From the IMG/VR virus record IMGVR_UViG_3300029448_000281, positions 1-29,304 of that record: a stretch of DNA of 29,304 nt; one strand, written 5' to 3'. The position numbers and the translations under genes were made by a program. The DNA comes from a virus. Numbering within the stretch: the first letter of the stretch is position 1; the number at the start of each line of letters is the position of its first letter. The notes under the pieces were generated by a model. It saw nothing but the letters and a program-made list of their open reading frames with translations, was not told the origin of the DNA and made no database searches. Below are positions 1,307 to 29,304 of this stretch, in pieces.

Positions 1307-1421
1307 TAAATGTGATCTATGTGAGAAAAAAGCAGTTATTCAACAAAATAACCAAAGCAAGTTTTATTGTGCAGTGTGCGCTTTAAAAAAACAAAAAGAA
1401 GAGAAGAGGAAGAGTAAGTGA
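1299..1421 (+). CDS. 40-aa four-cysteine (zinc-knuckle-like) mini-protein
   Basis: A 41-codon frame starts at ATG 1299, five bases after a near-perfect ribosome site (GGAGGA 1288-1293), and overlaps the previous gene by 8 bp. It stops at TGA 1419-1421, sharing its last base with the polymerase ATG. The product has the layout CDLC, a 17-residue spacer, CAVC, then a Lys/Arg/Glu-rich tail (KKQKEEKRKSK). Two CxxC pairs at this spacing are typical of a small zinc ribbon. A strong ribosome site, coupling at both ends and the cysteine pattern make it a real gene. A nucleic-acid or protein adaptor role is a guess; no family is recognised. Confidence 0.7.
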   Translation: MNNKCDLCEKKAVIQQNNQSKFYCAVCALKKQKEEKRKSK

Positions 1422-3226
1422 TGGATCTAATTACTCTAGACTTTGAAACGTACTACGATAAGGACATATCCTTGCGTAAGATGACAACAGAAGAATACAT
1501 ACGTGACCCATTGTTTGAGGTTATAGGAGTATGTGTTAAGGTAAACAACGGAGCAACGGAGTGGGCGAGTGGTACGCACGAACAGATCAAAGATTACTTG
1601 CACAGTTTTAAATGGTCGGAAGCAATGGTTCTTGCACACAACACGATGTTTGACGGTGCTATACTTAATTGGCATTTTGGTATTAGTCCTCGTGTATATA
1701 CCGATACTCTTTGTATTGGTCGTGCTGTTCATGGAGTTGAACATAGTGTAAGTTTGAAAGCGTTGGCTGAACGGTATGACCTTGGAGTTAAGGGAGAAGA
1801 AGTCCTCAACACACTGGGTAAAAGACGTGAGCAGTTTACAGACGAAGAATTAGAACGGTTCGGTGACTACTGCGTCAACGATGTAGAGTTAACATACAAG
1901 CTATTTATAAAGATGGCTAAAGGTTTTCCCAAGAAGGAACTTAAACTTATTGATACGACATTGCGTATGTTTGTAGAGCCTGTTTTACGCTTGGACCAGG
2001 CATTACTAGAAGAGCATCTTACAGCAACACGTTCACGTAAAGAACACTTACTCTCCCAGGCAGGCGCTGAACGTGATGACTTGATGAGCAATCCTAAGTT
2101 CGCAGAGTTACTAAAAGGTCTTGGTGTTGAACCCCCCATGAAGATAAGCCCTACAACAGGAAAAGAAACTCTTGCTTTGGCAAAGTCAGATGAAGGGTTC
2201 AAAGCACTTGAGAGCCACCCAGATGAGAGGGTGCAACAGCTTGTAGCGGCGAGGCTCGGCAACAAAAGCACATTAGAAGAGACACGAACTCAGAGATTTA
2301 TAGACATACATAATCGTGGGTTATTGCCTGTACCTGTTCGATATTACGCGGCACACACAGGACGTTGGGGTGGTGATGATAAGATTAATCTACAAAACTT
2401 ACCTAGCCGTGGGGTCAATGGTAAGAAGTTAAAGCAGAGCATACTTGCACCAGAAGGATGCACGTTGATAGACGCTGATTCGGCACAGATAGAAGCGAGA
2501 GTATTGGCGTGGCTTGCAGGGCAAGATGATTTAACCCAAGCGTTCAGAGATGGCGAAGATGTATATAAGAAGATGGCATCACGCATCTATGGGGTCAAAG
2601 AAGAAGATGTTACCAAGGATCAAAGGTTTGTTGGCAAGACAACTATCTTGGGTGCAGGGTATGGTATGGGAGCGCAGAAGTTTCAGAACCAACTGCAAAC
2701 ATTTGGGTTTGATATGGATTTGGATGAAGCACGGCGCGTCATAAAGATATACCGTGAAGCTAACTATAATATAAACAAGTTGTGGAGAGATGCACAACTC
2801 TACCTGCAGCACGCATCTGCGTTCGGTCTAAAGGATGTATTAAAGATAGAAGATGGCACTATAATACTACCGTCTGGTTTAAAGTTACGATACGAAGATC
2901 TACAGTTTGACCAAACCGATAGAGGTTTTGAGTTTCATTACAAAGTTCGGCGTGGTCGTAACAGGATATACGGCGGTAAGGTTATAGAGAACGTATGTCA
3001 AGCTATAGCACGTTGTATTATTGGCGAACAGATGTTGAAGATAGCACAGAAGCATAGGGTCGTTTTGACAGTTCACGATTCTGTGGTATGCTGTGTTAAA
3101 GATGAGGACGTAGTAGAAGCGCAAGAGTATATCGAAGAATGTATGCGTTGGACACCCGATTGGGCAAAAGGTTTACCGATTAATTGTGAGTCGGGAACAG
3201 GCAAATCATATGGAGATTGTGAATGA
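1421..3226 (+). CDS. Family A DNA polymerase with 3'-5' exonuclease (601 aa)
   Basis: This is the replicative polymerase of the phage. ATG 1421 overlaps the upstream stop by one base; a GTG three bases earlier is possible. Exonuclease motifs are intact: D7-x-E9 (LDFET), N74-x3-D78 (AHNTMFD) and Y150-x3-D154 (YCVND). Polymerase motif A is D353-SAQIE-A-R with E358. Motif B is R402-x3-K406-x3-L410-x3-Y414-G. Motif C is VHDS with H552-D553. There is no 5'-3' exonuclease domain, as usual for phage Pol A, so primer removal must come from elsewhere. The residue equivalent to E. coli Phe762 is leucine, a variant reported for many virioplankton polymerases and linked there to slower, more accurate synthesis. 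No DnaJ-like cysteine insert is present. It lies in one packed unit with small genes on both sides. Confidence 0.95.
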   Translation: MDLITLDFETYYDKDISLRKMTTEEYIRDPLFEVIGVCVKVNNGATEWASGTHEQIKDYLHSFKWSEAMVLAHNTMFDGAILNWHFGISPRVYTDTLCIGRAVHGVEHSVSLKALAERYDLGVKGEEVLNTLGKRREQFTDEELERFGDYCVNDVELTYKLFIKMAKGFPKKELKLIDTTLRMFVEPVLRLDQALLEEHLTATRSRKEHLLSQAGAERDDLMSNPKFAELLKGLGVEPPMKISPTTGKETLALAKSDEGFKALESHPDERVQQLVAARLGNKSTLEETRTQRFIDIHNRGLLPVPVRYYAAHTGRWGGDDKINLQNLPSRGVNGKKLKQSILAPEGCTLIDADSAQIEARVLAWLAGQDDLTQAFRDGEDVYKKMASRIYGVKEEDVTKDQRFVGKTTILGAGYGMGAQKFQNQLQTFGFDMDLDEARRVIKIYREANYNINKLWRDAQLYLQHASAFGLKDVLKIEDGTIILPSGLKLRYEDLQFDQTDRGFEFHYKVRRGRNRIYGGKVIENVCQAIARCIIGEQMLKIAQKHRVVLTVHDSVVCCVKDEDVVEAQEYIEECMRWTPDWAKGLPINCESGTGKSYGDCE

Positions 3227-28310: not shown

Positions 28311-28820
28311 CTATATTAGTTGTAGAGCTTCTTCTAACGCTTCTTTATTTCTCCTTGTCCAACCTTTACCAAATGTATCAAATGTTGACAATCCTTCATA
28401 AAACCCTTGACGCTTATCGTGCATTTTATGTAGGACTTCTTTTGCATCGTGTTCTGCAAGCATCTTTAATGTTTTAGGTCCTATACCGCCGTCTTGTGTT
28501 GCACCGATAATACCTTGTAAAGCTTTGGCGCTACGACTTGTTCCTGAATTAACACCCCAATCAAAACAAAAAAAGTCTAAACCAGATGGTAAGTCGTCTC
28601 CTTTAATTTTTTTCCAATACTGATTTTTATACAAAGGAGCTACATCAGTTGGGCTAAGATATTTCATCTCATTATCTTTGAGTTCTCTACCAACCCATCG
28701 TTGCCAAACTAAACGTGTTACACCGTGATTAGTCTCGCCCCCAGGGTCACGCGGGTGGTTAACGTAGCCACCTTCATGTTTTAAAAGCATTTCCAGAGCT
28801 TTCTCGAAATTTTCTTTCAT
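28311..28820 (-). CDS. GH108 family endolysin (169 aa)
   Basis: This muramidase cuts peptidoglycan at lysis. The N-terminus ML-L-KHEGGYVNHPRDPGGET with NHGVT is the signature of glycoside hydrolase family 108 (ZliS-type) endolysins, with E16 as the predicted catalytic Glu. QYWKKIKGDDLPSGLDFFCF, DWGVNSG and GIGPKTL continue the family pattern through a C-terminal peptidoglycan-binding-like part. Length is normal. There is no signal peptide, so release should depend on a holin, which precedes it in the operon. I chose ATG 28820, five bases after AAAGGAG; an in-frame GTG at 28826 would overlap the ribosome site. Confidence 0.92.
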   Translation of the reverse strand: MKENFEKALEMLLKHEGGYVNHPRDPGGETNHGVTRLVWQRWVGRELKDNEMKYLSPTDVAPLYKNQYWKKIKGDDLPSGLDFFCFDWGVNSGTSRSAKALQGIIGATQDGGIGPKTLKMLAEHDAKEVLHKMHDKRQGFYEGLSTFDTFGKGWTRRNKEALEEALQLI

Positions 28821-28941
28821 CGTCACTCCTTTGTTTGCACGTAAGACAAACTTCTTTCATAGTTTTCCATTTTTGTTCTCTAGTGTATATCCAGTATACA
28901 TTTATTTTAGTTCCACAGACAATACAAACTTCATCTTCTAT
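28774..28941 (-). CDS. Possible CxxC/CxxC mini-gene without a canonical start codon
   Basis: Between the holin and endolysin a frame is open from an upstream TGA to TGA 28774-28776. It reads EDEVCIVCGTKINVYWIYTR, then a Lys-rich stretch, then EVCLTCKQRSDDERKF: two CxxC pairs about 25 residues apart followed by a charged tail, as in a zinc ribbon. No ATG, GTG or TTG precedes the first cysteine pair. The best candidate start is ATA at 28941, which overlaps the holin stop as ATAG and lies about nine bases after AAAGG. Its 3' end overlaps the endolysin start region. It may be real with a rare start, reached by frameshift, or a decayed gene. Confidence 0.4.
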   Translation of the reverse strand: MEDEVCIVCGTKINVYWIYTREQKWKTMKEVCLTCKQRSDDERKFRESSGNAFKT

Positions 28942-29304
28942 TTCGTTAAACCTTTCTGCTTCTCATATGTTCTGAGGGAGCCTATGCCCAACATTCCGCC
29001 TAAAACCGTGAGGAGCGTACTCATGTCGAAATTTGGTAATTCTGGTATTTCAACTCCAGTTACAGTTAAAATAAAAACCAAAAAAGGTTGCAGCACAAAA
29101 TGATACGCAAAAGCAATCCCAGATGTCCACCCAATAAAGGGCCGCCAACCGCCTTTAAACAAACTACCAGAGGCTGCTTCCGCTTTGTTTATCTCTAATT
29201 GAGCAAGCAACGCTTGTTGGGCATGGGTATCAGACATGGTAGCTATTTCGTGGGCAAGCTTCGCCTTTTGATCTTTGTCTTGGATTACTTTATCAAGGAT
29301 ACCA
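28938..29304 (-). CDS. 3TM-type holin-like lysis protein (5' end beyond window)
   Basis: The frame stays open from TAG 28938-28940 to the window edge, giving at least 121 residues; ATG 29237 is internal, because the 22 codons before it (ILDKVIQDKDQKAKLAHEIA) belong to the same family pattern. The soluble N-terminal part with LEINKAEAASGSLFKGGWRP and FIGW is typical of the 'holin of 3TMs' family (PF11351) found in phages and gene-transfer agents. Hydrophobic segments follow (IAFAYHFVLQPFLVFILTV and LLTVLGGMLGIGSL), then a short basic tail. It should form inner-membrane lesions that release the GH108 endolysin encoded next. Confidence 0.8.
   Translation of the reverse strand, partial: GILDKVIQDKDQKAKLAHEIATMSDTHAQQALLAQLEINKAEAASGSLFKGGWRPFIGWTSGIAFAYHFVLQPFLVFILTVTGVEIPELPNFDMSTLLTVLGGMLGIGSLRTYEKQKGLTK

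Follow-up and report, generated by a model that had tools for sequence, protein, structure and literature searches.

A family of small zinc-finger genes with a putative AUA start codon overlapping the holin stop in marine phage lysis cassettes

The open frame between holin and endolysin

A holin gene and an endolysin gene lie on the minus strand of the 29,304-nt window (the whole stretch of viral DNA that was analysed), separated by 117 bp, and the locus raises the question of whether the open frame that fills this gap is a gene and, if so, where its translation begins. The original prediction described a frame in an otherwise empty gap whose only possible start is an ATA overlapping the holin TAG, and both points were confirmed from the sequence. 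The frame, referred to here as the finger frame, reads IEDEVCIVCGTKINVYWIYTREQKWKTMKEVCLTCKQRSDDERKFRESSGNAFKT followed by a TGA stop at 28776–28774. The holin TAG occupies 28940–28938 and forms a 4-nt ATAG overlap with the ATA at 28941–28939. The in-frame stop upstream of the ATA is a TGA at 28965–28963, and the seven codons between the two (GAA GCA GAA AGG TTT AAC GAA) include no normal start. The first ATG of the frame, at 28860, is located downstream of the first C-x2-C pair. At its 3' end the finger frame shares 47 nt with the endolysin gene; the endolysin itself is 57–65% identical to Roseobacter phage proteins. No tRNA genes that could read AUA differently were found in the window.

Table 1. 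Features at the holin–endolysin junction, in window coordinates
Feature	Position	Strand	Basis
Proposed zinc-finger gene, C-x2-C-x22-C-x2-C, 55 codons plus stop	28774..28941	-	Relatives, coding signature, structure model
Proposed start codon ATA	28939..28941	-	ATA invariant in aligned relatives
Holin gene, 3' part, ending EKQKGLTK and stop; 5' end beyond the window	28938..29304	-	GTA_holin_3TM, Pfam E 2e-21; PHROG holin E 5e-29
GH108 endolysin gene, ATG at 28820	28311..28820	-	Glyco_hydro_108, Pfam E 1.5e-29
Strong Shine-Dalgarno (SD) of the endolysin, AAAGGAG, inside the zinc-finger gene	28826..28832	-	Duplex -8.2 kcal/mol
Weak SD-like AGAAAGG, 9 nt upstream of the ATA, inside the holin gene	28951..28957	-	Duplex -3.4 kcal/mol, E. 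coli anti-SD

Relatives and coding constraint

A search with the window protein returned three close relatives in IMG/VR. Searching with the endolysin gave 80 loci, in seven of which the finger frame was complete and in one more was cut by the contig end, and a profile search for the finger itself gave 24 loci. Relatives of the finger occur in many marine viruses. In contrast to the losses that would speak against a gene (missing cysteines, frameshifts or stops), for which the relatives were inspected, all four cysteines were kept in the IMG/VR relatives and the conserved C-x2-C frame anticipated by the original prediction was found. Across the 33-codon core, none of 18 sequences contained an internal stop or frameshift, and differences by codon position numbered 971, 1013 and 1859. 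The median pN/pS was 0.31 in the finger frame; in the two shifted frames, both of which contain stops, it was 1.01 and 0.73. Conservation of this kind is more than would be expected by chance. The half of the frame that precedes the internal ATG was constrained on its own (pN/pS 0.35). Synonymous sites are near saturation between distant relatives, which means that the frame has been maintained over a long period. Judged by this pattern of substitution, the finger frame is a real protein-coding gene and not a product of decay.

No relative of the window protein was found in 50,697 GenBank phage records (tblastn, E up to 1), and the proteins of loci L106, L145 and L187 had no named relative in GenBank phages by the same search. 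A pattern search of GTDB species genomes gave 55 matches, among which no relative was confirmed.

Start codons across the family

The profile search took no account of start codons. Of its 24 loci, 20 had ATA at the holin stop, two had ATT, one had ATG and one was cut off before the start. In the alignment of 17 distinct DNA sequences (A6), ATA was present in all 17, with the holin stop being TAG in 16 and TAA in one. When the family was extended to 39 distinct DNA sequences, the starts were ATA in 22, ATT in five, TTG in one, ATG in seven and GTG in four, and every holin-linked sequence (22 of 22) carried ATA. The check proposed with the original prediction, whether relatives start with ATG, thus found ATG in seven of the 39 and ATA in most.

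So that the answer should not be chosen beforehand, a start-blind DNA pattern was also run, consisting of the fixed holin tail and two cysteines and allowing ATG, ATA, GTG or GTA. It reported 86 stretches, of which 80 were examined and 46 had the holin tail, holin context in this set being defined by a regex on the tail sequence. ATAG was found in all 21 finger-family loci, a number that includes L215 and L258, which the family regex missed and which were assigned by reading the sequences.

The junction with the holin gives this codon a context. Among 80 holin relatives, the stop overlapped the next start as ATGA in 52 and as GTGA in four, and the remaining junctions read ATAA in nine, GTAA in eight, ATAG in five and GTAG in two. 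Since in relatives lacking the finger gene the holin stop mostly overlaps the next start as ATGA, the ATA sits at the position that a normal start has in these relatives. The last lysine of the holin was encoded by AAA in 30 of 30 distinct ATA sequences, drawn from this family and from a second one described below, so that the base supplying the first A of the ATA does not vary. In control holins that end in TAA or TAG with no finger gene after them, the same lysine was AAA in 12 and AAG in 10 (n = 22, two finger-family members being left out; Fisher p 4e-5 without phylogenetic correction). The T and the second A of ATA are under constraint as bases of the holin stop as well, which counts against reading their conservation as selection on the start.

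Distant relatives with canonical starts place them close by. Aligned at the ATA position are the TTG of L134 and the ATG of L109 and L106, and one or two residues after it are the ATG of L145 and the GTG of L123. Where upstream sequence is present these starts touch the upstream stop (TTGA, TAATG, TAGTG), just as ATAG and ATAA do in the holin-linked members; L145 differs in that its ATG is near the upstream stop and does not touch it. Most TTG, ATG and GTG starts of the distant relatives thus coincide with the ATA in the alignment or lie no more than two residues away, and this marks the ATA as the start. ATT is used by five distinct relatives that follow a different upstream gene (L096, L099, L110, L111 and L112), with an in-frame ATA nine bases before it as an alternative candidate. 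Relatives of the L187 type are an exception that counts against the ATA start: they begin at an ATG nine codons earlier and have an internal ATA at the finger-start position. Between the holin and the finger relative in L187, L200, L203, L205 and L206 (L187 and L200 being the same contig), a nine-codon open reading frame, MTTKKTVRP followed by a stop, is joined by ATGA upstream and by TAATG downstream and is a possible coupling peptide.

The ATA is thus a near-cognate codon that is conserved in relatives and has no alternative start in the window, and it is probably the start of the finger gene. Of the three options that the original prediction offered, a rare AUA start is the one that the relatives support. 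The counts should not be read as independent events, as all ATA members may share one founder; on the tree, the ATA label requires two changes and a single origin is allowed.

Proposed route of translation

The explanation that we consider likely is that of a real small zinc-finger gene, translated from AUA after termination on the holin and yielding a scarce product. Ribosomes that end the holin at UAG would be handed back to the overlapping AUA by termination-reinitiation, with the weak SD alone to assist them. AUA is among the weakest of start codons, and a start of this kind would keep the finger protein scarce and sensitive to the level of IF3. The downstream endolysin, with its own strong SD, would be translated independently of the finger.

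With the E. coli anti-SD assumed throughout, the SD duplex at the ATA was -3.4 kcal/mol in the window and -3.2 to -4.6 kcal/mol in the 17 sequences, compared with a median of -5.1 at 30 ATGA relatives and -8.2 kcal/mol at the endolysin. In L218 the ATA is present and AAAGG is absent. A strong SD that might compensate for the codon, a feature of examples from Staphylococcus aureus but no strict requirement for a near-cognate start, was not found at the finger. In that bacterium infC, ccpN and cvfC1 have conserved AUA or AUU starts with extended SDs, which according to the sections cited yield about 10% of AUG, and up to 30% for ccpN (PMC13009471). The finger resembles these genes, as portrayed there, in having an evolutionarily kept near-cognate start and a low expected output, but it differs in its weak SD, its overlap with an upstream stop and its place in a phage lysis cassette (PMC13009471).

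Overlaps of the ATGA type, as treated in the cited part of a study of termination-reinitiation (PMC10666635), have the same geometry, and the relatives carry ATGA at the same spot on the same holin tail, where the finger has ATAG or ATAA instead. The overlap rules in that part assume starts ending in G, with rare non-canonical starts named only as a possible exception (PMC10666635). The coat/lysis coupling of RNA phage GA is alike in that a gene of the lysis region is fed by ribosomes terminating upstream. In the portion of that work cited, however, the coupling needs AUG, and changing AUGA to AUAA in an E. coli coupling reporter lacking an SD left no downstream product (PMC9955659). IF3 is described as disfavouring weak third-position pairs (PMC10158994) and as lowering reinitiation without an SD (PMC2268962), in the passages cited from each. 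Taken with the weak SD, these data lead us to expect low output, and initiation may require a factor specific to the host. The retention of AUA in relatives suggests that the phage deliberately makes very little finger protein, and low output may itself be the point.

Alternative explanations

An unlikely alternative, also among the options of the original prediction, is that ribosomes slip by -1 or at the stop codon at the end of the holin, so that a fraction of molecules are holin–finger fusions and the ATA is merely a codon in passing. In every case the finger frame lies at -1 to that of the holin and is open from the holin's last seven codons onward, as such a fusion would need, and a slippery heptamer was present within the last 15 nt in three of 17 distinct sequences (L100, L102 and L105). 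The other 14 had none in the seven-codon overlap, L015 having one only at -51, and RNAalifold, which covers structures other than pseudoknots, found no consensus pairs in the 17 sequences. Neither a conserved slippery heptamer nor a conserved stimulatory structure, the marks of programmed -1 frameshifting, was therefore seen. In addition, by eye count, 12 of the 30 distinct sequences have C as the base before the last AAA, where the Lys-tRNA could not re-pair, and AAG, which a slip product would tolerate as the last lysine codon, was never seen there. A fusion is also not needed by the relatives outside the holin context, given that five distinct ones follow a different gene and others carry starts of their own.

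Two further readings grant the frame a smaller role, and both are far less probable. Initiation at the internal ATG (28860) would give a 28-residue peptide, leaving the upstream half untranslated or with some other role. This ATG does open a 28-codon frame, and methionine is found at the position in most relatives; however, the residue is leucine (TTA) in L009, isoleucine (ATA) in L011 and valine in L096, and the half upstream is coding by its own measure and contributes two of the four cysteines, half of the metal site. We regard this reading as very improbable. There is a similarly slim chance that expression of the finger is incidental and that the conserved feature is ribosome traffic from the holin to the endolysin, the frame acting as a coupling leader. 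The overlap with the endolysin start in the window and the nine-codon coupling-like frame of the L187-type relatives are in keeping with this, but four invariant cysteines and constraint at the level of amino acids speak against a mere coupling leader, and in L093–L095 and L216 other sequence or genes stand between finger and endolysin.

The third option of the original prediction, a dying gene that has lost its ATG and is no longer translated, accounts for the lack of a canonical start upstream of the first C-x2-C but is hardly credible against 18 intact sequences under purifying selection, an ATA held across near-saturating synonymous divergence and a search for broken-frame relatives that found none.

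Predicted fold and possible role

In an AlphaFold model of the finger protein (mean pLDDT 85.9), a cysteine knuckle leads into a beta hairpin and then into a helix that begins with the second cysteine pair. A treble clef has this order, with a C-x2-C knuckle, then a beta hairpin, and the second C-x2-C at the start of a helix. The predicted fold of the finger is therefore treble-clef-like rather than that of a zinc ribbon, and the earlier description as zinc-ribbon-like probably named the wrong fold class. Fold searches gave no significant match in the PDB (best E 2.4), among viral models (best E 0.2) or in a second search (Z no higher than 2.4), and the best PDB match by sequence had an E of 0.26. 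Pfam and PHROG matches were all weak, those from Pfam being below the curated cut-offs; the best Pfam match of the window finger was to the double zinc ribbon (DZR, PF12773), at 17.7 bits against a cut-off of 27.3. The finger thus shares C-x2-C pairs with DZR and with GATA-like/ADD fingers, although its matches to them fall under the curated cut-offs and no fold match was significant.

The endolysins that neighbour the fingers are of unlike kinds, including GH108, a Peptidase_M15-type enzyme (L109) and a phage-lysozyme-like one (L246, with a match of E 0.00076, just under the cut-off). With such different enzymes beside it, regulation of lysis or of late expression is a likelier role for the finger than partnership with one enzyme. 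That it is such a regulator is a guess from its position.

Other zinc fingers in the same position

A second zinc-finger family, C-x2-C-x12-C-x2-C, was brought up by the start-blind pattern directly after the same holin in 12 loci, eight of them distinct (L223, L228, L234, L249, L250, L253, L255, L265, L270, L278, L281 and L285). ATA within ATAA or ATAG was present in 12 of 12 loci (8 of 8 distinct) and is the only in-frame start, likewise with only seven open codons upstream. The variable columns by codon position were 5, 5 and 13, as expected for coding sequence. Comparison of the two profiles gave a 5% probability of relation, the alignments being shallow, and the second family is apparently unrelated to the first. 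A tblastn search of GenBank phages at E up to 1 gave no relative of it. The tail of this second finger continues into the gene downstream, which has a DFGV motif like that of M15-type endolysins.

Further zinc-finger types occupied the slot with ATGA in 13 loci of the start-blind set. Cysteine-pair frames unlike the window family were present in six of 80 holin loci (L145, L165, L166, L171, L182 and L188), with ATGA or GTGA starts in the same post-holin slot. Small zinc fingers of several types thus recur in the slot after this holin.

A broader and more tentative proposal, which we hold to be somewhat doubtful, is that AUA starts are a selected and repeatedly adopted device of expression in marine phage lysis cassettes, used by at least two unrelated finger families that start across the stop codon of the same holin. 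IF3 or ribosome recycling would gate the output, and a scarce regulator would in this way time lysis whichever endolysin is present.

Implications for annotation

On the comparisons above, the finger family is a set of real lysis-cassette genes that had escaped annotation, with a conserved candidate AUA start in a stop-start overlap. Gene callers as a rule take ATG, GTG and TTG, and genes with an ATA start such as the finger are missed by callers so restricted. Near-cognate starts are already known, and it is the ATAG/ATAA stop-start form in a phage lysis cassette that would be new; in a literature search, PMC13009471 was the one paper to report conserved AUA starts in bacteria, and among the titles and abstract openings listed none described a phage gene with an AUA start. 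Were the AUA start true, ATAG and ATAA overlaps would be a class of junction left out of overlap surveys by definition, and these phages would offer a natural test of how far reinitiating ribosomes tolerate near-cognate starts. A further outcome of the analysis is a slot in the lysis cassettes of marine phages where zinc fingers recur.

Small open frames elsewhere in the window

On the plus strand, a second small cysteine-pair frame (MNNKCDLCEKKAVIQQNNQSKFYCAVCALKKQKEEKRKSK) lies at 1299–1421, between the genes at 836–1306 and 1418–3226. A 77-codon open frame at 439–672, also on the plus strand and with an ATG 13 codons in, is located inside the 587-bp gap at 249–835.
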